In this document: piece by piece, positions 35,698 to 59,035 of the stretch
Layout of the letters: each line of letters starts with the position of its first letter
Numbering within the stretch: position 1 is the first letter of the stretch
Origin: Gammaproteobacteria bacterium
Lineage (GTDB): Bacteria; Pseudomonadota; Gammaproteobacteria; Enterobacterales; Psychrobiaceae
Direction: 5' to 3'
DNA length: 64,000 nucleotides
NCBI GenBank assembly: GCA_013214945.1
Contig: JABSRT010000002.1
Coordinates: 1-64,000 of the forward strand
Notes under the pieces: generated by a model
Seen by the model: only the letters and a program-made list of their open reading frames with translations
Told to the model about the DNA's origin: nothing
Databases searched by the model: none
Translations under genes and position numbers: made by a program

Positions 35698-36926
35698 TGA
35701 GTGAACTATTTAGACGCGATCCGCGTGCCCAATGGATTGCTCGTAATCGATTGCACCCACTGCATCAAGCAACAGCAGCCGGGCCTGTTTACGGCCCGAG
35801 CGGTTTATTACGCAAAAATGTCCATGGTTTAGGGTTTATTGGTCCTAATGGTCTTAAACGTATTGATCGTTCTGGCAACTCAAGTGGCGACGCTAGCGGT
35901 CGCCGCGGCAGTGGGCCAGCACAAGCGGCCGTGGTATTGCCGTTGCATCAGGTGAGTAAGCCAGACTTTACGATTGTAGTGGCACTAGATCTGGTTTCTG
36001 GTCGTCTTAATGGTCACGACAAAGATACCCTTGGTTTAGCCCAGCAATTGGCCAATCACAATGGTGCTAATGGTGTGGTGATAGCCGTCGCTTTTGGTGA
36101 ATTAAAGGATGATAACCTTGATCATGCGGGAGTAGATCGCTTGATCCACTTAAGCGGCAATCAGTATTACGATTATGATCCTGAGCAGCGCTGTCGTGAT
36201 CTTGGTGTTATTGTTAAGCAATTTAATCCGCAGCATATTCTATTGCCCGACAGCATCAATGGTGGCGGCGATCTCGGTCGCCGTTTGGCCGCTAAGCTCA
36301 AACTTCGCCCTGCTTGTGGGGTTTGGAAGTTAGACCACGACAACATTGTTTGTCGTGGCAGTGCGGGCAAGACCGACATCACTCGTGCATTATCTCGCTT
36401 GTTATTAGTGATGGAAGAATGTAGCGAACCGGTCAGTGAAACGCGTCATGAGCAACTAGCGCTGACGGTTGAATCTAACAAGGCTAAATCATTGATCGTT
36501 GATCACGGCAATGTTGAGGTTGATCCTAATGCGATCCCACTCGGTGAAGCAGGCTTTATTTTATCGGGTGGTAACGGCATTGCCGATTGGCCCGGCTTTC
36601 ATCAGGCGGCTGCAACCTTGGGCGCAACTGAAGGCGCGAGCCGTGTGGCAGTCGATGACGGCTTTATGCCGCGCACCCGCCAAGTTGGGGCAACAGGCAG
36701 CTGGGTTACAGCACAGGTTTATATTGCGGTGGGTATCTCTGGCGCAATCCAGCACATGCAGGGCATAGGTCAATGTGACAAGGTGGTCGCGATTAATACC
36801 GATGAGGGTTGTGACATGGTTAAACGTGCCGATTTGAGCGCAATTGGCGACAGTAGCGAAATATTAGCGAGTTTGGTCGATTTAGTCTTGCAGCATAAAG
36901 CGGGAGAAAATAAAGATGTCGCTTAA
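35697..36926 (+). CDS. etfA: Electron transfer flavoprotein alpha subunit of the dgc operon
   Basis: This 409-aa protein is longer than housekeeping EtfA (about 310 aa). It has an N-terminal extension of about 90 residues rich in Arg and Gly, then the flavodoxin-like domain and the C-terminal FAD-binding domain. The diagnostic segment is GATGSWVTAQVYIAVGISGA near residue 340, followed by VVAINTDEGCDM. It accepts electrons from DgcA. It overlaps dgcB by one base and etfB by 11 bases, which points to coupled translation. The Pseudomonas operon has the same pair (PA5400 and PA5401). Confidence 0.9.
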   Translation: MSELFRRDPRAQWIARNRLHPLHQATAAGPVYGPSGLLRKNVHGLGFIGPNGLKRIDRSGNSSGDASGRRGSGPAQAAVVLPLHQVSKPDFTIVVALDLVSGRLNGHDKDTLGLAQQLANHNGANGVVIAVAFGELKDDNLDHAGVDRLIHLSGNQYYDYDPEQRCRDLGVIVKQFNPQHILLPDSINGGGDLGRRLAAKLKLRPACGVWKLDHDNIVCRGSAGKTDITRALSRLLLVMEECSEPVSETRHEQLALTVESNKAKSLIVDHGNVEVDPNAIPLGEAGFILSGGNGIADWPGFHQAAATLGATEGASRVAVDDGFMPRTRQVGATGSWVTAQVYIAVGISGAIQHMQGIGQCDKVVAINTDEGCDMVKRADLSAIGDSSEILASLVDLVLQHKAGENKDVA

Positions 36927-37710
36927 TCATGAACTATCTATTGTTACGCTGGTTTCGGTCGGTGAGCATCCAGCATCAGGGCGAGCGCGCCGCGCCGAGC
37001 AAGATGCTCGCGCTGTAGAGCTTGGGTTGAAATTAGTCGGTGACAAACTGCAAACAATCTACGCGGGTTCGGCTAGTGATAAGCAGGCTACAAGCGCGTT
37101 ACGCAGTTATCTTGGCATGGGCTTGAGTGAAGTAATCTTACTGGATTTACCAGAGCAAGCTGATGCAGCAATTGGCTTGGTTGAGCATTTCAAAAGTAGC
37201 CAGTGCCCTGACATTATCTTAACAGGGGTACGAGCTGAAAGCGGAGAATCGTCGGGCATGATGCCGTATTTACTCGCTGAGCAATTAGGCATGACGGTGA
37301 TAAGTTCGATTGCAGATATCTTGTCGATTGATGTTAACGCTAAGCAAGCCGAAATATTACAAGCCTTACCTCGTGGTCAACGCCGCAAGGTTAAGGTCAG
37401 TTTACCGCTGGTTGCTAGCGTTGATATGGCAGCAAGCGAACCGCGTCAAAGTGCCTTTGGTCCTGCTATGCGTGGTCAAATCAATGCTGAAACTAGCCAC
37501 AGCGAAGACGATATCGAGCGCTTGCAATGGCAGACGGCACCCGCTAAAAAACGACCTAAGCGCCTTAAGATCGTAAAAGCCAAAACGGCAGCCGATCGTT
37601 TTAAAGCAGCCACAGCAAAAGCCGCTGGCGGCGGTGGCAAAGTGGTTCATGGCACACAAGAGTCGGCGCAGGCTATTTTCGATTTGCTCAAAGAAGAGGG
37701 TATGCTGTAA
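36916..37710 (+). CDS. etfB: Electron transfer flavoprotein beta subunit of the dgc operon
   Basis: This is the AMP-binding beta subunit (264 aa) of the ETF paired with the preceding gene. It shows SGRARRAEQDARAVELGLKL at the N-terminus and DIILTGVRAESGESSGMMPYLLA in the core, matching the TGxRAE-type motif. The basic Lys/Arg-rich C-terminus (KKRPKRLKIVKAK) may dock on the alpha subunit or the membrane. It is the last gene of the dgc operon; a hairpin follows. Confidence 0.9.
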   Translation: MSLNHELSIVTLVSVGEHPASGRARRAEQDARAVELGLKLVGDKLQTIYAGSASDKQATSALRSYLGMGLSEVILLDLPEQADAAIGLVEHFKSSQCPDIILTGVRAESGESSGMMPYLLAEQLGMTVISSIADILSIDVNAKQAEILQALPRGQRRKVKVSLPLVASVDMAASEPRQSAFGPAMRGQINAETSHSEDDIERLQWQTAPAKKRPKRLKIVKAKTAADRFKAATAKAAGGGGKVVHGTQESAQAIFDLLKEEGML

Positions 37711-37723
37711 CTGGCGATATTTT

Positions 37724-37745
37724 GTGCTGCACAAGGTTGCAGCAC
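37724..37745 (+). terminator. Hairpin at the end of the dgc operon
   Basis: A 7-bp stem GTGCTGC/GCAGCAC with an 8-nt loop lies 14 bases after the etfB stop. The T-rich tail is weak. Confidence 0.5.
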
Positions 37746-37988
37746 TATTGTTGCTTTAGGGTTGCGGTAACGTTGTGATTTGGGCTATTTTGTTGCGAAA
37801 TGACCTGCCTTTTCGTTGCTTTTGTCCTTGGTTACCGTTTGTTAACATGTTGAGGTTAAATATTCGCCTTAACTTGTCACTTCGCGCCGCTTGTAACATT
37901 TTTGCAACTAGATGTTATTTAATCTGTTGGCTCTATATTTGTACGATTTTTAAATGTATTAGACGTGAATAAATAACTTGTTGCAAAC

Positions 37989-38007
37989 GATAACTATTGC
38001 CATTATC
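37989..38007 (+). promoter_or_regulatory. Fur-box-like site before the TonB receptor
   Basis: GATAACTATTGCCATTATC matches 13 of 19 positions of the classical Fur box, with both outer arms (GATAA and CATTATC) conserved. It lies 30 bases before the receptor ATG. Confidence 0.6.
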
Positions 38008-38037
38008 ATCCCGTTTTATTTTTAATGTATAATTGAT

Positions 38038-40521
38038 ATGAAACCATTTCGTCTTTCGCTGCTCGCGGTTGCTTGTAGCTCAGTACTCTTACCCTCAAGC
38101 TTGTTTGCGGCGCAGCAAACCCAAGAAATGCTAGTACCAGTCGAAGCTAGTAAAGCGGTAGCAGAAACAGCTTCTGCAAACGAAGAAGTCGATAATGTCA
38201 CTGTGTACGGCAGACAAAACCAAGTGGTGATGAATTCAGGCTTAGCGACCAAATCTGACATGTCGCTGATGGAAACGCCTGCAGCAGTGGTTATCGTTGA
38301 TGAAAAGCTGATCAGTGTGCAAGGTGTTAATGATCTTCAAGATCTTATTCGTAATATCAGTGGCGTTACTCAAGCAGGTAATAACTACGGAATAGGTGAT
38401 AACTTAATGATCCGCGGTTTGGGTGCTAACTATACGACTGATGGGATGTATGGTGGTGCCGGTCTTAGCAACACGTTTAACCCAACACGTTCATTGACCA
38501 ATGTTGAGTCAATGGAAGTACTGAAAGGACCTGCCACTGGCCTTTATGGTATGGGCAGTGCTGGTGGCGTGATCAATTTAATTGAAAAAAAACCACAATT
38601 TGAAAAGCACCATGAATTAGAGCTTGAACTTGGCCAGTGGGATAGCCGTGCGTTAAGTTTCGATAGCACTGGTGGTCTAACCGAAAAATTGGCTTATCGT
38701 ACCGTCGTTAAATCAGCGCGTAGTGACGGTTATCGCAACATTGGTACCGACCGAGATGAGATTTATAGCTCGCTTAAATATCTGCTCGGCGAACGTCAAA
38801 GTTTAACGGTGTCGGCAGCCTACATTAAGGATTCTATTGCGGTGGATTCTATCGGCCACCCTATTCGGATTTTTAATAGCGCATCTGTTGGCGATAAAAC
38901 AGCGGGCCAAGTCGGCTGGCAAGATCTGATTAACGATCCTGGCGGCAATGGCATCGTGTTAACCGACGCACAGCGCCAAGAGCTGAGCGACTCACTTGCC
39001 GCTAATGATGGCTTAACGCCGTTTTCTTTTGGCAGTGCAGGCATTATTTCGCCCATTGCTAAAGATAACTCGGGTAAAGAGTTAAGGTTTAAGATTGCTC
39101 ATGAAATTGAAATTAATGATAATTTATCCTTAAATCAACAGCTGCAGTTACGTAATTATGAGTCAGGTTTTACCCGTCAAACGGGGGCTTATAACTATGT
39201 GTATTGGAACCGTCAAGGTACCATTAATGCCGATCCGCGTGCCCCTTTAGTTGAAAACGGAGTGTTGTACCCGTTTGCGGCGCGCCGTCAAGAATACCGT
39301 AAAGTTTCTGCAGACGAGAAATCATGGCAATATTTTGCTGATCTACGTTATGACTTCGAGTTCGCTGGCATTGATAATGAATTGCTCGTTAACGCCAACT
39401 TTGAACAACGCGAAGTGCGCTTTCAGCAATACTCAATTTATGACGCTGATAAAGTGATTAAAGATGAAAGCGGCAATGTGATCTATCAAGGTCAGCATCC
39501 TTACATTTATGATCTTCGCAATCCGAACTGGGGTTCCGGCTCGTTCGAAGATTACGATCCGTTATTGACCAGTAATTACAACAAAAAAGTCAGTGCATGG
39601 GGCGTTGGTTTACAACACGTCGGTTACTTTGAAAATGGCTTCACGACCCGAGTTGGTATCGCATTTAATGAGATAAAGCAACAGTATGAACATTTAGGTG
39701 TCGATGCACGCTATCGAGCCAGTGCGGCGGCGCCAACACCAGAAGTTGATACAACAGATAACGGCACAACCTATAACTTAGGTATGACCTACATGCCAAT
39801 TGACGATCTGGCGTTATTTGTTAACTACTCTAAAGGCCGCACAGCTTATGGCGTGTTAAGTAGTGTCAAAGGCGATGGTAGCGACAGAGAAGACTCTGAG
39901 TCAGTAAGTACTGATCTCGGTGTTCGTTATAAAGCTTTTGATGACCAAGTATTAAGCTCGTTAGTATTGTTTAAGAGCGCCCGTACTAATTTACGTTATA
40001 GCAACCCTGACTTTGACCAAGGTGTGACTGGACCTGAGGTTGCACAGTATTTTTACAATGGCAAAGACGAAACAACAGGTGTTGAACTTGATATTAACGC
40101 TCACTTGAGTGAGCGTTGGTTGCTCAACGTCAATGGTACTTACCAAGATGCTCGTAATAAGCAAGACCCAACCAGCAGCAGCTTTGATACTCGTCAAAAA
40201 GGTGTGCCTTATGTAACGGCTAGCACCTGGTTAACCTATGGTGCCCAGTTCTTAGCGCTACCTAACCCGATTGATATTAGTTTTGGCGTGAAATATGTCG
40301 ATAAACGAAGCACCAACTCAACCAGCTTCGGCATTCCTGACGGTCATGTAGCAAGTTATACAGTTTATGACTCGGCGATTGGCTATCAAGCTGACAACTG
40401 GAAGTTACGGTTAAATCTTAATAACTTGCTTAACGAAGTCTATTACAATAAAGCGATGTTCCTGGGTGGTATGCCAGGCGAAGAGCGTAATGTTAAGTTG
40501 ACCTTTAACTACCAATTATAA
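38038..40521 (+). CDS. TonB-dependent siderophore-type outer membrane receptor
   Basis: This is an outer membrane receptor (827 aa) of the TonB-dependent siderophore family. It has a signal peptide (MKPFRLSLLAVACSSVLLPS...LFAA), a TonB-box-like VDNVTVYGR near residue 52, a plug domain with LMETPAAVVIVDEKLI and LKGPATGLYGMGSAGGVIN, a 22-strand barrel region and the usual aromatic C-terminus (LTFNYQL). Substrate specificity cannot be read from sequence. A hydroxamate or catecholate iron chelate is likely in view of the Fur-like site. No ribosome site is visible before the ATG, which follows AT-rich DNA, so the start is less certain than the frame. Confidence 0.92.
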   Translation: MKPFRLSLLAVACSSVLLPSSLFAAQQTQEMLVPVEASKAVAETASANEEVDNVTVYGRQNQVVMNSGLATKSDMSLMETPAAVVIVDEKLISVQGVNDLQDLIRNISGVTQAGNNYGIGDNLMIRGLGANYTTDGMYGGAGLSNTFNPTRSLTNVESMEVLKGPATGLYGMGSAGGVINLIEKKPQFEKHHELELELGQWDSRALSFDSTGGLTEKLAYRTVVKSARSDGYRNIGTDRDEIYSSLKYLLGERQSLTVSAAYIKDSIAVDSIGHPIRIFNSASVGDKTAGQVGWQDLINDPGGNGIVLTDAQRQELSDSLAANDGLTPFSFGSAGIISPIAKDNSGKELRFKIAHEIEINDNLSLNQQLQLRNYESGFTRQTGAYNYVYWNRQGTINADPRAPLVENGVLYPFAARRQEYRKVSADEKSWQYFADLRYDFEFAGIDNELLVNANFEQREVRFQQYSIYDADKVIKDESGNVIYQGQHPYIYDLRNPNWGSGSFEDYDPLLTSNYNKKVSAWGVGLQHVGYFENGFTTRVGIAFNEIKQQYEHLGVDARYRASAAAPTPEVDTTDNGTTYNLGMTYMPIDDLALFVNYSKGRTAYGVLSSVKGDGSDREDSESVSTDLGVRYKAFDDQVLSSLVLFKSARTNLRYSNPDFDQGVTGPEVAQYFYNGKDETTGVELDINAHLSERWLLNVNGTYQDARNKQDPTSSSFDTRQKGVPYVTASTWLTYGAQFLALPNPIDISFGVKYVDKRSTNSTSFGIPDGHVASYTVYDSAIGYQADNWKLRLNLNNLLNEVYYNKAMFLGGMPGEERNVKLTFNYQL

Positions 40522-40574
40522 CAAGTGTCTAGATAAGCGCTAAAGCCAATGCTTAAGGGCTATAGCAGTTAACA

Positions 40575-40599
40575 AACGCAGCCAAATGGCTGCGTTTTT
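40575..40599 (+). terminator. Intrinsic terminator of the TonB receptor
   Basis: AACGCAGCC and GGCTGCGTT form a 9-bp stem with an AAAT-type loop and a TTTTG tail. Confidence 0.85.
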
Positions 40600-40601
40600 G
40601 T

Positions 40602-41355
40602 TTATTGATCAGTGTGAAGGGCTGGCTCATAAACAATCAGTTGATTCATACCGTTTTGCTTAGCTTGTTGCAGCGCGATATCAGCATTTTTAATAATTGA
40701 AGCCGCTGAACTGTCGGACTGCCAATGAGTGCAGCAACCGATACTCACCGTAATGTTACCAACATCTTGAGAGTGGCTTGATTGGATATGACTACAGATT
40801 TTAATCGCAATACTTGTTAATTTTTCTTGATCAATCGTTGGGTAAATAATTAGAAACTCGTCGCTCGCCCACCGACCAATAATGTTGCTTTGGTTGATGC
40901 CTTTTTGCAGTAACAGCGCTAGTCTTTTTAGAATGTTATCGTCGACTTAGTAGTCGAAGTTATCATTGACCAAGATTGAAATAGTCACGACAAGCCAAGC
41001 AACGGCTTCAAGTTGATCGTTGTAATAAATAGGGCTAATCGCTGATACCATCCAGCCTAAACCTGCGGGATTTAGATAAGCTTTGGTCCAAACCGTATTG
41101 CGCTCAGGATTGTGATTTTGATCGGCAAAGTAGCAAAAATTGTTATCCTTTAGCACTATATCTGGACCAAATTGCGACGGTACATCCGTAATAAAGGAAT
41201 AAGTTCGATTCATATCGTCGTTTGTGTTCAAGTAGGCTTGCGTGACTATGCTATTGGTATCAACAATACTTTTAAGTAAGGGATCTAGTGGTTCGCTACA
41301 GCTAGCTTTGGTATCTATTTTGGTGATTTTGAACAACAGAGGCTCGGCCCACCAT
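40602..41355 (-). pseudogene. Decayed membrane-sensor diguanylate cyclase
   Basis: One minus-strand frame runs from about 41355 to the stop at 40602 and is broken by a single in-frame TAA at 40947-40949. The upstream part (41336-40950) is the distal half of a double-Cache sensor domain, with YLNPAGLGWMVSAISPIYYN. The downstream part is the C-terminal half of a GGDEF domain, with VDDNILKRLALLLQ, GRWASDEFL (the GGDEF motif reduced to ASDEF), NITVSIGC and NADIALQQAKQNGMN. The membrane helices, linker and first half of GGDEF between them are missing, and in-frame stops precede the Cache part. It is a 5'-truncated gene with an internal deletion and a nonsense codon, and no cyclase activity is expected. 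Confidence 0.85.
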
Positions 41356-41376
41356 TATTAAGATTTATTAGCCTTG

Positions 41377-41829
41377 CTATAACTCGTTCAGTTGTTGATT
41401 GCTCAGTTCCATTAACAGGGAATTTAATGCCATTAATTGGCTTTTCAATAGCTCTAATTACTGCTGTGATTCTGAATCTTGTTGATTTTGTAATTGCTGG
41501 ATTTGCTGCATGATTTCGCGTATTTGTTGGTTAAGTTCGTCAATAATGTCTGCAATCGAGTTGGTTGAGTCGGTTTCTGTTACTGAAAGGTTGTTTTTCG
41601 CTTGATGCTCGGTGAGCTCGCGACCATAAGCATGGCGTTGCGCTTGCGATATTTTTTATTGCCCTTGCCCTTGGGCAGATATGGTAAGGACTGTTGATGC
41701 TGTCTCTGGTGAGGTTGGTGCGCTTACTTTAGTAACCGGAACCGGGGTGATATTGCCGTTATTATCTCTGCTAGCATTATGATTTATTGGTGCCGTATTA
41801 ATGTCGACAAACTTTCCTATTGAATTCAT
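41377..41829 (-). pseudogene. Small Gln-rich protein gene with two in-frame TAA codons
   Basis: A frame of 150 codons starts with ATG at 41829 (MNSIGKFVDINTAPINHN; GAGAG site ahead) and is broken by TAA at 41658-41656 and 41460-41458, ending with TAG at 41379-41377. The encoded chain continues sensibly across both stops: a Ser/Thr/Pro-rich N-terminus, then SQAQRHAYGRELTEHQAK, then a coiled-coil region with ELNQQIREIMQQIQQLQNQQ and LELLKSQLMALNSLLMEL. Both stops lie where Gln would fit (after GQGQ and after ESQQ), so CAA to TAA changes are likely. I do not recognise the family. It precedes the decayed diguanylate cyclase on the same strand. Confidence 0.7.
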
Positions 41830-41864
41830 TACGCTCTCTATTTAATTGTCGACAACTCAAGCAA

Positions 41865-42668
41865 TTACTTTAGCATGCCAGATCCTGATTTTTGATGACT
41901 TAGCTCAATAGGTCCGAGCTGATATTTATTTAAAATTTGCTGATATCTTTCCGTCGTGATCAGCTTTTTTATTTCAATTGAAAATTGCTTAGCCAGTTGC
42001 TTGGCGGCAGGCTTCGCTTTTGAAAATGCGAAAAAAGCCGGAGCGACATCAATCTGCGGGTTAATAAAGTCAATTTTATCGAATATTTCAGCGTGTTTAG
42101 CATGCATACTTATAACGGATTTATTGGCGACCGCCAAATCTATTCTTGCTCGAAGTAACATTCTAAGTAGCTGAGACTCATCGACAGCTAACTGTTTATT
42201 TAGCTCTTGAGCATTGTCATAGGCGGCGCCATGTGAGGAACCTCTAACATTGCCAAACTTATAATGCTTCAACTTGCTAAGATCACCGTCAAACTCAATG
42301 GCAGCGCCTCTTTTGCTTACCAAATAACTGCTGTCATATATATGGGGAATATCAGTGTAGATGACGTCTGCTTGCCTCGCTGGCGTTTTGAAATATAGAA
42401 TGACCATATCTATATTACCTTGACGTAAATATAGTTGAATGCGTGACCAAGGATACTGCTCAAACACTAATGTGTGGCCTAAGTTGGCTGCAATATGTTG
42501 AGCTATTTCGATAACAGCACCGCGCATCACACCATCTTGTTCGAAGTAATACGGCGGGTAGTAAATGTTGCCGATCCCGACTTTAAGCTCTTTTGCTTGC
42601 ACTATTAACGACGATGTCACTAGCACGCTGCACGAGAGCAATAACGCGAATAATTTTGTTGAGACCAT
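41865..42668 (-). CDS. Periplasmic solute-binding protein, family 3 type
   Basis: This 267-aa protein is of the bacterial extracellular solute-binding protein family 3 (amino-acid-type Venus flytrap). It has a signal peptide (FALLLSCSVLVTSSLIVQA) followed by KELKVGIGNIYYPPYYFEQDG, the usual first strand and ligand loop. No ABC permease or ATPase gene is adjacent, so it may be an orphan sensor partner or a remnant of a signalling locus; the two pseudogenes directly downstream on the same strand support this idea weakly. A strong GGAGAG site precedes the ATG. The ligand is unknown. Confidence 0.85.
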   Translation of the reverse strand: MVSTKLFALLLSCSVLVTSSLIVQAKELKVGIGNIYYPPYYFEQDGVMRGAVIEIAQHIAANLGHTLVFEQYPWSRIQLYLRQGNIDMVILYFKTPARQADVIYTDIPHIYDSSYLVSKRGAAIEFDGDLSKLKHYKFGNVRGSSHGAAYDNAQELNKQLAVDESQLLRMLLRARIDLAVANKSVISMHAKHAEIFDKIDFINPQIDVAPAFFAFSKAKPAAKQLAKQFSIEIKKLITTERYQQILNKYQLGPIELSHQKSGSGMLK

Positions 42669-42931
42669 ACTCTCTCCTTTATCAGCATAAAATATGTGAC
42701 ATTAAACCTGTGTCATTGTAGTTAATGAACTGCGTATCAGCAAAATGGCTAGCACTTAATCTGAAAACATTTCGAAATATATTCGATGGCAGAGGGGAAA
42801 GAGTTAAGTCAGCTTAGTACATATTAGTAGTGGCAATGAAGTGAGCGATTTTGTAACGAGCATAAACGGACTAAATCAATGATTCTTTGGTTAGTCCGTA
42901 AATGTCAGGTGTTTAGCAAAATTTGGTGGAA

Positions 42932-43354
42932 TTAATGCAGTACTTGAGGTTCTTCGTTTAACCACGCTGCGGTTGCCTCTAACGCTTCGAGACAGTTTTC
43001 ACAAATAGGATAATGTTCGCTAAAATCGAGCAATGGACTAAGAGTTACCGTTAAGGCGTGCATTAACTTGGTACGAAATGACGGAGATAAAGAGTCATTT
43101 TGTAGCGAGGTTAGCGGCCATTGGTGCGCCATGGTCAGGTAGCGTAGAGCCGCCTTGTGTTGATCTTGCACTTCAAATAAAGCAGACAACTTATGCAGGC
43201 TATTAATCCACGCCATCATTAATTGAAAGTCTTCGCGATCATTAGCCCATTCCTGCTCGATTAAATCGATCGCATTAAAATAATATTGTTCGGCATCAAG
43301 CCAGCGATATTGCTGACTGCATGCATCGCCATTGTTAATAAAATCTTGCCACAT
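42932..43354 (-). CDS. Hypothetical protein with TPR-like helices
   Basis: This is a 140-aa protein without a signal peptide or membrane helix. Helical segments such as WLDAEQYYFNAIDLIEQEW and HKAALRYLTMAHQWPL resemble tetratricopeptide repeats, and a C-terminal C-x2-C pair (ICENCLEAL) is present. It is divergent from the pseudoazurin gene, and a Fur box (43394-43412) lies 40 bases before its start, so iron control is likely. I do not recognise a named family. A role linked to iron limitation is an inference from the site only. Confidence 0.7.
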   Translation of the reverse strand: MWQDFINNGDACSQQYRWLDAEQYYFNAIDLIEQEWANDREDFQLMMAWINSLHKLSALFEVQDQHKAALRYLTMAHQWPLTSLQNDSLSPSFRTKLMHALTVTLSPLLDFSEHYPICENCLEALEATAAWLNEEPQVLH

Positions 43355-43393
43355 CAGCGGATAGACCTACGAAAGTTAATAGTTAGCCTATTT

Positions 43394-43412
43394 GTAACTG
43401 ATAATCATTATC
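43394..43412. promoter_or_regulatory. Fur box 1
   Basis: GTAACTGATAATCATTATC matches 16 of 19 positions of the classical Fur box GATAATGATAATCATTATC. It lies in the promoter region of the divergent TPR-like gene. Confidence 0.85.
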
Positions 43413-43459
43413 AAGTAAAGTGGTTTTTTATAATCAAATGGTAGCACTCGATAATGGTT

Positions 43460-43478
43460 GTAATTGATAATCATTATC
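43460..43478. promoter_or_regulatory. Fur box 2 before pseudoazurin
   Basis: GTAATTGATAATCATTATC matches 16 of 19 positions of the classical Fur box and lies 43 bases before the pseudoazurin start, where it would block the promoter. Confidence 0.87.
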
Positions 43479-43521
43479 ATTAAAATGGTGCGTTTATCAA
43501 TTCACTGGTGGAAAATATCTT

Positions 43522-43971
43522 ATGATCAAACGTACAACAATGACTGCTACAGTACTGACGCTATTGGCTTGTAGTTCATGGCTTAATGCGGCTGAGTTTA
43601 CCGTAAAAATGCTTACTTCTGGTGCTAATGGCCAGATAATGGTAATGGAACCTGCTTATCTTAAAATAGCGCCAGGCGACACCGTAAATTTTGTGCCAGC
43701 AGATCCTAGTCATAATGCGCAATCGGTATCAATTCCGGCGGGGGCAAGTTCGTTTGCTACGCCTATGGGCAAAGAGGGCAAGGTTACTTTCGGCAAGGAA
43801 GGCGTTTATGTCTACAAATGTTTACCACATGTAACGCTTGGCATGGTGGGCGTTATTCAGGTTGGCAAGGCGGTTAATCTTGAGCAAACAAAGCAATTTC
43901 TAACTGGGTTTAAGTCAACGATCGCGATGAATAAAGAGCGAGTTGATCAATATATTGCACAGGTTAAATAG
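43522..43971 (+). CDS. Pseudoazurin (periplasmic blue copper protein)
   Basis: This 149-aa cupredoxin has a signal peptide (TMTATVLTLLACSSWLNAAEF). The type-1 copper ligands are visible: His in DPSHNAQSV (about residue 60) and the Cys-His-Met set in YVYKCLPHVTLGMVG (about residues 98-112). Pseudoazurins carry electrons in the periplasm to nitrite or nitrous oxide reductase or to terminal oxidases. None of those enzymes is in the window. Two Fur boxes upstream suggest induction when iron is short, when a copper carrier could replace a cytochrome c. It converges on fdhA with a hairpin-rich gap. Confidence 0.92.
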   Translation: MIKRTTMTATVLTLLACSSWLNAAEFTVKMLTSGANGQIMVMEPAYLKIAPGDTVNFVPADPSHNAQSVSIPAGASSFATPMGKEGKVTFGKEGVYVYKCLPHVTLGMVGVIQVGKAVNLEQTKQFLTGFKSTIAMNKERVDQYIAQVK

Positions 43972-44066
43972 CAAGTTGATTAAGAGATCTCATTAAGTAA
44001 TAACGAGATCTAATCTTAATGATCTGGACATGATCAGGGCATGATCTAAAGATAAGATCATCAAAA

Positions 44067-44102
44067 AGATGATCTGGCTATCTTGCGGTAGCCAGATCAT
44101 CT
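44067..44102. terminator. Strong bidirectional hairpin between pseudoazurin and fdhA
   Basis: A perfect 14-bp stem (AGATGATCTGGCTA with TAGCCAGATCATCT) has an 8-nt loop. Its left arm can also pair with AGATCATC at 44055-44062 across an AAAAA loop, so two exclusive folds are possible. No long T-run follows. Confidence 0.65.
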
Positions 44103-44128
44103 AATAATCTGAGAGCCAGATGTTATCG

Positions 44129-45331
44129 TTAAGCGACCATACCGTGAGGATCGATCACAAACTTTTTAGCCGCGCCATGATCAAATGCATCATAACCTTC
44201 TGGTGCGCCATCAAGTGAAATAACCTGAACATTAACCGCTTTGGCAATGTCGATTTTATCCCACAAAATAGCCTGCATCAGATTGCGATGATACTTCATC
44301 ACCGGACACTGACCCGTGACCATATAATGAGACTTAGCCCAACCAAGACCAAAATTCATGCTTAGCTGACCAGTTTTAGCCGCTTCTGTTGCTGCACCGG
44401 GATCGCCAGTAACATACAAGCCAGGAATACCAATGCCACCCCCGGCACGAGTCACTTCCATCATGGTATTAAGCACAATGGCAGGTTGCTCTTTATGATG
44501 GCTACAGCCATGGCTGTGAGCTTCAAAACCAACACAATCGACACCGCAATCGACCTCTGGCGTGCCGAGGATCTGTTCGATCATTTCGTGAACCGGAGTA
44601 TCTTGACGTAAATCGATGGTTTCACAACCAAAGCTGCGTGCCTGAGCTAGGCGATCAGGGTTCATGTCGCCAACAATCACACAAGCCGCGCCTAATAATT
44701 GAGCTGAAGCTGCTGATGCCAGACCCACTGGTCCTGCGCCAGCGATATAAACCGTTGAACCTGGTTTAACGCCAGCACTAACCGCGCCGTGATAACCGGT
44801 CGGGAAAATGTCAGATAACATGGTAAGATCTTTTATTTTTTCTAATGCTTGATCTTTATCTGGAAATTTAAGCAGATTAAAGTCGGCATAAGGCACCATC
44901 ACATATTCTGATTGCCCACCAACCCAGCCGCCCATATCAACATAACCAAAGGCAGCGCCAGCGCGACCAGGGTTTACATTAAGACAAATGCCCGTCATGC
45001 CTTCTTTACAATTGCGACAACGGCCACAAGCGATATTAAATGGTACAGACACAATGTCGCCCACTTCTAAATATTCTACATCACGACCTTTTTCGATCAC
45101 CATGCCAGTAATTTCATGGCCGAGCACTAAACCCGGTTCAGCGGTCGTACGGCCGCGTACCATGTGCTGGTCACTACCACAAATATTGGTGGTAACAACT
45201 TTTAAGATCACACCATGCTGGCAAGATCTATTGCCAATAGCGAGTTTAGGGTAGGCAATATTTTGTATTTCAACACTGCCAGGGCCGGTATAAACCACGC
45301 CACGGTTTCCATGATTTGAACACATATTCAA
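44129..45331 (-). CDS. fdhA: Glutathione-independent formaldehyde dehydrogenase
   Basis: This zinc-dependent medium-chain dehydrogenase (400 aa) oxidises formaldehyde to formate with NAD+, as in Pseudomonas putida FdhA. The N-terminus GNRGVVYTGPGSVEIQNI is diagnostic. The catalytic zinc region TNICGSDQHMVRGRT and GLVLGHEITG is present, as are the structural-zinc cysteines (IACGRCRNCKEGMTGIC, about residues 97-113) and the nucleotide motif VYIAGAGPVGLASAASA. In betaine catabolism it removes the formaldehyde released by GbcAB and DgcAB. It is a separate transcription unit about 6.4 kb from the end of the dgc operon. Confidence 0.94.
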   Translation of the reverse strand: MNMCSNHGNRGVVYTGPGSVEIQNIAYPKLAIGNRSCQHGVILKVVTTNICGSDQHMVRGRTTAEPGLVLGHEITGMVIEKGRDVEYLEVGDIVSVPFNIACGRCRNCKEGMTGICLNVNPGRAGAAFGYVDMGGWVGGQSEYVMVPYADFNLLKFPDKDQALEKIKDLTMLSDIFPTGYHGAVSAGVKPGSTVYIAGAGPVGLASAASAQLLGAACVIVGDMNPDRLAQARSFGCETIDLRQDTPVHEMIEQILGTPEVDCGVDCVGFEAHSHGCSHHKEQPAIVLNTMMEVTRAGGGIGIPGLYVTGDPGAATEAAKTGQLSMNFGLGWAKSHYMVTGQCPVMKYHRNLMQAILWDKIDIAKAVNVQVISLDGAPEGYDAFDHGAAKKFVIDPHGMVA

Positions 45332-45684
45332 GCTCTCTTATTATCGCAATGGCATTGCCTACGTGATAGTACGTTGCCATTGATATTTTAGATGAATTAT
45401 TGCCAGTAACACGACGGTGGATACGGCAATTTCGAGGTCCTAAACCACCTGTTTTGTAGCGGGTTTGTTCCTGCAAATTTAACAGCTGGTTAACTATCAG
45501 ATTAACGTGTTGCGAGTTTATTAGGCATGCCTATTCAAGACATCTGCATGCCTTAAAATGACAAACGGGTGTTTTAATTTAGAGAGAGGTATTAAAGTTA
45601 GTGAGTTATTAAATGTTTTGTGGCTGGCTTTAATAATCTAAAGTCAGCCACTTTGTAATGGTGTCGCTTGGCACCATTAATTGA
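45332..45684. other. Gap between fdhA and the NhaC gene
   Basis: No gene is seen here. Two hairpins lie near the NhaC end, TGGCTGGCTTTA/TAAAGTCAGCCA (45621-45650) and TAATGGTG/CACCATTA (45656-45679), without T-runs on the minus strand. The fdhA promoter must lie in the right part of the gap; no clear -35/-10 pair is assigned. Confidence 0.5.
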
Positions 45685-47178
45685 TCAAACGTTGCCCGTT
45701 TTAAGGCTGTTTGGAGTTAATTCAGCCAGCTGCTCTTGCGCTTGGCGCTGGGCGTCTGCCAGCTCGATATCAGATATCTTGGGCGAGAATCGTCCTAACG
45801 CAGCATAAATCAAGCCGATGATTGGTGATAACCAACAGGCGAATGCCAATGGAATATAAAGTAAGTTCTCGATATTACCTTCAGCTATACCAAGCCCCAG
45901 TGAGGTGATAACAATAGCGCCGCCTGCATTCCATGGAATTAATGGTGAAATTAGAGTGCCACCTTCTTCAACAGCGCGAGAAAGGTTAAGTTTTGAATAA
46001 CCTTGTTTAACATAAGTTGGTGCGAACATCCGGGCCGGCAGAGCAATTGACAGGTAAGGGTCGCCAGCAATTAAGTTGGTCGCAACCGCGGTTCCTGTAG
46101 CAGCAGCTTGCAGGCCAAAGAATGAATTGACCCGACGTAGCATCGTTTCAACAATGGTATCTAAACAGTGAGTTCGCTCTAGCGCGCCGCCAAAACCTAA
46201 GGAAATTATCACTAAGGTGATAACCCAAGTCATTGATTGAATGCCACCACGATTTAACAAGCTGTCGATTTCGCTGACGCCAGTTTCAATTTTGTAACCG
46301 GACTGCATATAGTTGAATACATCATGCAATGAAGCGTCTTGCGCTAGCATCGCCATAATTGCGCCAACCGCCACACCGGCAAATAATGATGGTAATGCCG
46401 GCATTCTTTTTAGCGCCAAGGCAATAACTAGTAATGGCGGTAGCAATAACATCCATGACAGAGTGAAGTTACTCTCTAAACCAGTGGTGATCGCTGCAAT
46501 TTTAGAAAAGTCGACTTGGGTTGAACCAATGATGTTAAAACCGACGAACAAGTAAATAACTAACGCTATCAGCATTGCCGGCACGGTCGTTGGCATCATA
46601 TTGCGAATGTGGTCAAACAGGTTGACCCCCGTTACTGCTGGTGCCAAGTTTGTGGTGTCTGAAAGTGGCGATATTTTATCACCAAAAAAAGCACCGGATA
46701 CTATGGCACCTGCGGTCCAGTACATTGGAATATCAAAACCGGCGCCAATGCCCATTAAGGCTAAACCAACGGTACCGACGGTGCCCCAAGAGGTGCCGAG
46801 CGAGACCGAAACTACAGCACAAAGGATCATGCCAGCCGCTAGGAATAATTCTGGCGTTAGCACTTTTAGGCCGTAATAAATCAATACTGGCACAGTACCG
46901 CTGGCAATCCAAACCCCAACGATCATGCCGACCGTGATTAAAATAGCGATTGAAGGTAGCCCAACTTTGATCACGTGCATCACACCGCTTTCGATGTCGT
47001 CCCAACGATAACCGCGAAACCAACCTAAGGTTGCGGTGATGGCCAAACCAATCGCTAGTGGGATGTGCGGGGTAAAGTCTCCGAAATAAAACAGTTGGAC
47101 TGCGAGTACTACAAGCGTCAGAGCAATGGGCAATATAGCCATGCCGAAACTGGGTTTTAAATTTTTGTTATTATTCAT
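45685..47178 (-). CDS. nhaC: NhaC-family Na+/H+ antiporter
   Basis: This is an inner-membrane antiporter (497 aa, about 12 helices) of the NhaC family. Recognisable parts are FDIPMYWTAGAIVSGAFFGDKISPLSDTTN (in pieces, about residues 148-177), with the acidic GDKISPLSDTTN segment conserved in the family, and SLGTSWGTVGTVGLALMG. It exports Na+ in exchange for protons or a related organic ion. A role in extruding Na+ brought in by Na+-coupled betaine uptake is an inference. It is divergent from the response-regulator operon and may be its target. Confidence 0.92.
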   Translation of the reverse strand: MNNNKNLKPSFGMAILPIALTLVVLAVQLFYFGDFTPHIPLAIGLAITATLGWFRGYRWDDIESGVMHVIKVGLPSIAILITVGMIVGVWIASGTVPVLIYYGLKVLTPELFLAAGMILCAVVSVSLGTSWGTVGTVGLALMGIGAGFDIPMYWTAGAIVSGAFFGDKISPLSDTTNLAPAVTGVNLFDHIRNMMPTTVPAMLIALVIYLFVGFNIIGSTQVDFSKIAAITTGLESNFTLSWMLLLPPLLVIALALKRMPALPSLFAGVAVGAIMAMLAQDASLHDVFNYMQSGYKIETGVSEIDSLLNRGGIQSMTWVITLVIISLGFGGALERTHCLDTIVETMLRRVNSFFGLQAAATGTAVATNLIAGDPYLSIALPARMFAPTYVKQGYSKLNLSRAVEEGGTLISPLIPWNAGGAIVITSLGLGIAEGNIENLLYIPLAFACWLSPIIGLIYAALGRFSPKISDIELADAQRQAQEQLAELTPNSLKTGNV

Positions 47179-47482
47179 TGTTTAGCTCCAGTTAAACCTA
47201 GGGAAATAATTTACGGGATCAAAACACCTTAATTTCGGCTCACTAACTTGAGGTGTTTTTTTAGCCTGCGCTCAAAACACTAACTGTTAGATGTAAATCA
47301 GCGATTAACAACTTGTAACAATATGTAAATGGGAGATGGTTGTTTTTACGGCTGTACAAGGAAGGTAATCAAGCCTTTTCAAGTTGTTTGAACTTGTGCT
47401 AAGTTGGCGCCTAAATATTGTCGATAGCTCATAATGTTAAACCAGATGCTAAGACTGAAAATGCGACAGTGAGGGGATAATC
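47179..47482. promoter_or_regulatory. Divergent region nhaC / response regulator
   Basis: No gene is seen here. An inverted repeat AAAACACCT...AGGTGTTTT followed by TTT (47221-47262) lies 43 bases before the nhaC start, reading as a terminator on the plus strand and as a leader hairpin on the minus strand. The rest holds AT-rich DNA and the GAGGGG ribosome site of the regulator. Confidence 0.55.
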
Positions 47483-58390: not shown

Positions 58391-58475
58391 GCGGGGGTGG
58401 CGGAATTGGTAGACGCGCTAGATTTAGGTTCTAGTATCCTAGGGTGTGAGAGTTCAAGTCTCTCTTCCCGCACCA
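58391..58475 (+). tRNA. tRNA-Leu (anticodon TAG)
   Basis: This 85-nt tRNA with long variable arm has a complete cloverleaf, GCGGGGG/TCCCGC acceptor, anticodon loop TTTAGGT in stem CTAGA/TCTAG and encoded CCA. Confidence 0.96.
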
Positions 58476-58522
58476 TTTATTTATTCAAGGTTTACTTTGA
58501 ATAAGTAGATAAACATTTTAGT

Positions 58523-58597
58523 TGGGATATAGCCAAGCGGTAAGGCAGCGGGTTTTGATCCCGTCATTCCAAGGTTCAAATCCTTGTATCCCAGCCA
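58523..58597 (+). tRNA. tRNA-Gln (anticodon TTG), copy 1
   Basis: This 75-nt tRNA has TGGGATA acceptor start, anticodon loop TTTTGAT in stem GCGGG/CCCGT and encoded CCA. Confidence 0.96.
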
Positions 58598-58672
58598 CTT
58601 TTTTAAAGTGGAGTTAACCTCGGTTAACATTAGAATGACGACAGCGTGAACGGCTGTAAAACGTTTAGTGAT

Positions 58673-58749
58673 GGCTACGTAGCTCAGCTGGTTAGAGCAC
58701 ATCACTCATAATGATGGGGTCACAGGTTCGAATCCCGTCGTAGCCACCA
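58673..58749 (+). tRNA. tRNA-Met, elongator (anticodon CAT)
   Basis: This 77-nt tRNA has GGCTACG/CGTAGCC acceptor, anticodon loop CTCATAA in stem CATCA/TGATG and encoded CCA. The initiator features (three G-C pairs and a mismatched first pair) are absent. Confidence 0.95.
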
Positions 58750-58796
58750 TATTTCTTTTATGTTATCTCAACGTATTAGAAATGAATAAGTTTAGT

Positions 58797-58871
58797 TGGG
58801 ATATAGCCAAGCGGTAAGGCAGCGGGTTTTGATCCCGTCATTCCAAGGTTCAAATCCTTGTATCCCAGCCA
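58797..58871 (+). tRNA. tRNA-Gln (anticodon TTG), copy 2
   Basis: This gene is identical to copy 1 over all 75 nt and is flanked by a similar upstream sequence, which points to recent duplication. Confidence 0.96.
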
Positions 58872-58950
58872 ACTATTCTTCTCGTTAAAAGCGAGTGATG
58901 TTATAAGAAATTCACCCTTTTTATAATGTTAAGCAGTAAAACTTTGTTAT

Positions 58951-59035
58951 GCGGGGGTGGCGGAATTGGTAGACGCGCTAGATTTAGGTTCTAGTATCGC
59001 AAGGTGTGAGAGTTCAAGTCTCTCTTCCCGCACCA
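58951..59035 (+). tRNA. tRNA-Leu (anticodon TAG), copy 2
   Basis: This gene is identical to the first tRNA-Leu except at the variable arm (CGCAAG in place of CCTAGG). It has encoded CCA and is followed by a terminator. Confidence 0.96.

Follow-up and report, generated by a model that had tools for sequence, protein, structure and literature searches.

Bacterial pseudogenes accompanied by an intact paralogue at another place in the same genome are a known kind. We analysed a probable case in the window, a 64,000-nucleotide stretch of a gammaproteobacterial draft genome (contig JABSRT010000002.1, positions 1 to 64,000), where two neighbouring minus-strand frames occupy positions 40602–41829. 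One of them aligns with diguanylate cyclases of the sensor-HAMP-GGDEF arrangement, represented by a paralogue on another contig of the same genome (C1) and by a homologue in genome G246, the aligned parts being a piece of the sensor and, of the GGDEF domain, the C-terminal two thirds. The other resembles the coiled-coil genes that sister genomes carry next to a met-zincin gene (DUF4953), and has, as they do, about 150 residues, a Gln/Glu-rich composition and an alignable C-terminal helix. Both homologous frames are disrupted relative to their intact relatives, and we consider it very probable, from sequence comparison, that the locus consists of two adjacent, fairly recent pseudogenes produced by ordinary point mutation and deletion.

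Results

Two interrupted coding frames

The coiled-coil frame (41829–41377, minus strand; the coiled coil was recognised by eye) comprises 150 codons, with TAA at codons 58 (41656–41658) and 124 (41458–41460), and runs to a TAG at 41377–41379. The cyclase frame (41354–40602, minus strand) contains a single internal TAA at 40947–40949 and terminates with TAA at 40602–40604. Sequence and translation agreed with the original prediction on the three premature TAA codons, the residue contexts quoted for them and the TAG. The frames had also been described as otherwise sensible, and this held: each has uninterrupted homologues, and each carries fewer stops than base composition would give. Against 2000 simple base shuffles per frame, we observed two stops in 150 codons of the coiled-coil frame (shuffle mean 8.5, sd 2.8, lowest 1) and one in 250 codons of the cyclase frame (shuffle mean 15.3, sd 3.7, lowest 4). 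The deficit of the coiled-coil frame is modest when taken alone; both frames are evidently coding remnants, the stronger proof being the uninterrupted homologues of each. Beyond the cyclase remnant lies a TonB receptor gene (named by eye; 38038–40521, plus strand) that ends in TAA, with a terminator-like hairpin (40574–40597, plus strand) between the two.

The cyclase remnant and its intact paralogue

We compared the cyclase remnant (40602–41354, minus strand) with the intact 657-residue paralogue on C1, to which a DNA search aligned it as two separate blocks with identities of 74% and 68%. The sensor of the paralogue matched the Pfam family MCP-like_PDC_1 above the cut-off (dCache_1 and HAMP matches fell below theirs), and its GGDEF match was well over the cut-off. 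The 3′ part of the window copy matched GGDEF with an E-value of 1.5e-18 over profile positions 56–161 of 161; its sensor fragment (114 codons, 70% amino acid identity to the paralogue) gave no Pfam match of its own, and neither the ORF list nor the translation offered an in-frame ATG ahead of that fragment.

Anchor alignment revealed that 831 bp of the paralogue are absent, in frame, from the window copy, whose two sides join near 40967–40969 (minus strand). The missing segment corresponds to paralogue codons 260–536, which encode the remaining sensor, a membrane helix (judged by eye), a HAMP-like stretch and the initial third of the GGDEF domain, so that 44 out of 152 residues in the GGDEF match of the paralogue are lost. 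The motif ATGAT stands in the paralogue at both ends of this segment, an arrangement compatible with deletion between short direct repeats. A further in-frame loss of about 387 bp near the 5′ end of the window copy (junction 41323–41326, minus strand) is tentative, since the 5′ piece matches at 13 of 18 bases and the runner-up position in the paralogue reaches 12 of 18. Both losses had escaped the original prediction. What is left contains neither a complete GGDEF domain as found in a working enzyme, given the truncated profile match, the deleted residues and an altered signature motif (ASDEF), nor the succession of sensor, membrane helix and HAMP linker, since the HAMP-like stretch, with the helix assigned there by eye, falls within the deletion.

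Point changes were also found at conserved positions. Among residues present in both the paralogue and G246, two Gly beside the stop have become Asp and one Gly in the motif RWAGDEF (paralogue) has become Ser (RWASDEF in the window copy), and the window sensor is changed at residues common to the paralogue and all six outgroups (for example, Gly to Trp and Asp to Val). Private departures at outgroup-conserved columns numbered five in the window sensor versus three in that of the paralogue, scored with all six outgroups; in GGDEF they numbered nine (stop included) versus 12, scored with G246 as the sole outgroup, the others being degenerate or carrying other domains there. The window copy thus shows no clear excess of such departures, and it is their nature that suggests decay.

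These lesions bear on two other readings of the locus. Errors of assembly or sequencing in intact genes might be suspected in a draft assembly of 59 contigs; however, an 831-bp loss, three stops and altered conserved residues gathered in one locus are unlike random base errors, and the listed neighbouring genes are open, making this reading highly improbable. Programmed readthrough, in which TAA would be read as Gln and the genes would still work, had been put forward as possible but less likely, and accords with frames that stay open on either side of the stops and with two stops at Gln positions. Readthrough alone could not restore the cyclase, however, because, whatever happens at the stop, the product would lack the membrane helix (judged by eye), part of the sensor and the first third of the catalytic domain. 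Furthermore, TAA terminates 25 of the 41 long ORFs of the window (at least 130 codons), that of the TonB receptor next door too; the five tRNAs of the window, which were the only Rfam matches, have the anticodons tag, ttg, cat, ttg and tag, none of which reads TAA; and no stop stands at the matching sites in the five coiled-coil homologues, while the paralogue and the six outgroups in the alignment likewise have none there (G252 not being comparable). We regard the chance that these genes are still expressed through recoding as close to negligible.

The sensor type is sparse among relatives: nine of 394 genomes of the order, this one included, reached an E-value of 1e-12, as did none of the eight other genus members, in which weaker sensor matches occurred, most of them in much longer proteins. 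Given this sparse distribution, the cyclase gene looks accessory in the genus. The G246 cyclase is 43% identical to the C1 paralogue. Scanning genome contigs with the intact paralogue gave 38 loci, whose best segments were 25–43% identical and lay within query residues 335–657 only; of the sensor region they can touch no more than the end, and none of the 38 served as an outgroup. A plasmid collection gave no DNA-similarity match.

A perfect short hairpin (TCGACT-TAGT-AGTCGA, 40942–40957) encloses the premature stop of the cyclase remnant. It is terminator-like, and four such hairpins occur in 2.5 kb where 2.3 are expected; its position around the stop is probably due to chance.

The coiled-coil gene

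Protein search identified matches to the coiled-coil protein (41377–41829, minus strand) in six of 58 genomes, this one included. The five homologues (in G002, G005, G006, G007 and G013) are 25–36% identical to it and have uninterrupted frames. An order-wide search of 394 genomes at an E-value of 1e-8 retained only G002 and the genome itself among the candidates scored, at most nine per genome, so that distant homologues may be missed. The two longer pieces of the gene and two homologues matched no Pfam family above a cut-off, and one homologue reached 22.7 of 120 bits against FspA, far below the cut-off.

A met-zincin gene (DUF4953) adjoins the homologue in G002, G005, G006 and G007, and none stands beside that of G013 within the 3.3 kb examined. 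We found no met-zincin match in the present genome; as a control, one was present in seven of the nine genus genomes and absent from G000 and G001. The coiled-coil gene of the window is therefore in a different setting from those of its relatives. When 36000–47200 was searched as DNA against the nine genus genomes (this one included), no sister genome matched over the coiled-coil gene, and inside the cyclase remnant the single sister match spanned 40 bases, in G006. With sister matches of at most that length, there is no empty or intact sister site for comparison.

The TAG at 41377–41379 probably marks the gene's own end, or lies near it: the codon stands in the variable tail, the homologues extend one to seven residues beyond this point, and two further stops follow within four codons. 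Because the homologues are so distant, it is the two internal stops that would indicate relaxed selection on this gene.

Residues expected at the stops

The original prediction had every premature stop replacing Gln, each by a C-to-T change from CAA. Comparison with relatives upheld this at two sites and not at the third. At 40947–40949, CAA occurs in the paralogue and in three outgroups (G246, G101 and G050), CAG in G086 and a Ser codon in G069, while G252 carries another domain and is not comparable. At 41458–41460, Gln is found in all five coiled-coil homologues, encoded by CAA in four and CAG in one. At 41656–41658, however, the five homologues have Glu (GAG), Glu (GAG), Ala, Ala and Lys, with Gln in none; this codon directly follows a GGGCAA GGGCAA repeat, where the local alignment is uncertain, and Gln there is possible, though not indicated.

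We then considered how often chance would place stops at Gln. CAA and CAG make up 20 of the 150 codons of the coiled-coil frame and 15 of the 250 of the cyclase remnant, and Gln codons account for 29% and 16%, respectively, of the single-base changes that give a stop if there is no mutational bias. These shares rise to 45% and 24% under a twofold transition bias, and to 62% and 32% under a fourfold one; for the whole intact paralogue they are 8%, 15% and 24% (no, twofold and fourfold bias). As Gln codons supply a sizeable share of possible stops in both frames, finding two of three stops at Gln is not remarkable, and it fits some transition bias better than none. A signature of stops only at Gln can hence arise from Gln-rich frames and normal transition bias.

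Mutation spectrum and timing of inactivation

Cytosine deamination or hypermutation acting on this locus would be expected to turn Gln codons into stops, and some features point that way: a single C-to-T change separates two of the three stops from the Gln codon present in the homologues, and some of the Gly losses (to Asp and to Ser) are of the G-to-A type. Substitutions were counted over 235 codons, 227 of them with G246, leaving out the first nine sensor codons (misaligned near the 5′ junction). Polarised by G246, the window lineage acquired 40 transitions and 34 transversions, and the paralogue lineage 35 and 38. C>T and G>A changes together made up 22 of 74 in the window lineage, a slightly larger share than the 17 of 73 in the paralogue lineage, but the difference was not significant (Fisher p = 0.46); GC-to-AT versus AT-to-GC changes stood at 26:30 and 25:36, respectively (p = 0.58), and T>C was the commonest single type in the window lineage (13 changes). 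With Gln found in none of the five homologues at the third stop, Gln-rich frames and a deletion as the main lesion, the biased process suggested at the outset is unsupported, and we judge it very unlikely. Because the outgroup is distant and most of the changes probably arose before the inactivation, a brief burst of recent date could be concealed among them; nothing positive indicates one. Ordinary point mutation together with deletion accounts better for these data.

Differences between the window copy and the paralogue at first, second and third codon positions number 21/16/53 over the 114 sensor codons, and 37/28/52 over 113 GGDEF codons. Since the excess at third positions is still visible, most of the divergence probably accumulated while both copies were under selection, which would have been lost late. 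Three stops correspond to approximately 0.056 neutral substitutions per site (Poisson range 0.012–0.163), a rough age for the inactivation. The proposal that selection was lost recently thus gains support, in the sense of fairly recently.

Neighbourhood of the locus

Around the locus there are two families of short direct repeats and six inverted pairs, among the latter a perfect 11-base inverted pair (40482–40492 and 41827–41837) that flanks the two pseudogenes; we take them to be chance occurrences in 1.4 kb. Directly upstream, at 41865–42668 (minus strand), is an intact stand-alone solute-binding gene (SBP_bac_3), whose best match in the eight other genus genomes is just 26% identical, so that it likewise looks accessory.

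Farther along, two perfect copies of GATAATCATTATC, which we presume to be Fur-box-like, occur at 43400–43412 and 43466–43478, upstream of a gene of the plastocyanin/azurin family (43522–43971; Pfam Copper-bind, E 1.1e-13). The motif has four strand-matches with at most one mismatch (0.16 expected), and the 31–33 bases around its first copy match G001 and G003 at 97%. A short intergenic sequence at 42835–42879, followed by the inverted repeat CGGACTAA...TTAGTCCG (noted by eye), recurs in five of the nine genus genomes, ten times in G002, with one more copy on contig C2 of the present genome; it may be a dispersed repeat, or else a leader or terminator element that these genomes share. The tRNA genes form a cluster at 58391–59035 (plus strand) in the order Leu(tag)-Gln(ttg)-Met(cat)-Gln(ttg)-Leu(tag), which is symmetric, as if partly duplicated.

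Discussion

The intact paralogue and homologues, the stops and the 831-bp loss bear out the view that 40602–41829 holds two adjacent decayed genes. In the sequence of events that we propose, a coiled-coil gene and a membrane sensor-GGDEF gene, neighbours on the minus strand, would have lost selection and decayed together, by ordinary point mutation and deletion, into pseudogenes. The cyclase may have become dispensable because the C1 paralogue made it redundant or because the signal was lost, and the 831-bp deletion would have been an event between short repeats. Neither frame is predicted to yield a functional product.

The lengths of both cyclase losses (387 and 831 bp) are divisible by three, and a shorter protein may therefore have been produced at one time. 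It is conceivable, though we think it very doubtful, that before the stops arose a short regulator composed of the sensor and a partial GGDEF domain, without cyclase activity, was kept for a time with the coiled-coil protein. The reading of two pseudogenes decayed by ordinary mutation has a simple consequence for annotation: 40602–41829 can be recorded as two pseudogenes, and a mutator or recoding hypothesis is unneeded.

The finding is an ordinary one, of a kind already known. Compared with sensor-HAMP-GGDEF cyclases, the window copy is without paralogue codons 260–536 and has acquired a stop; compared with the coiled-coil genes of sister genomes, the window copy is broken and located elsewhere. 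Premature stops, an internal deletion and changed conserved residues are likewise the features of known pseudogenes with an intact paralogue, from which this locus does not differ in kind.
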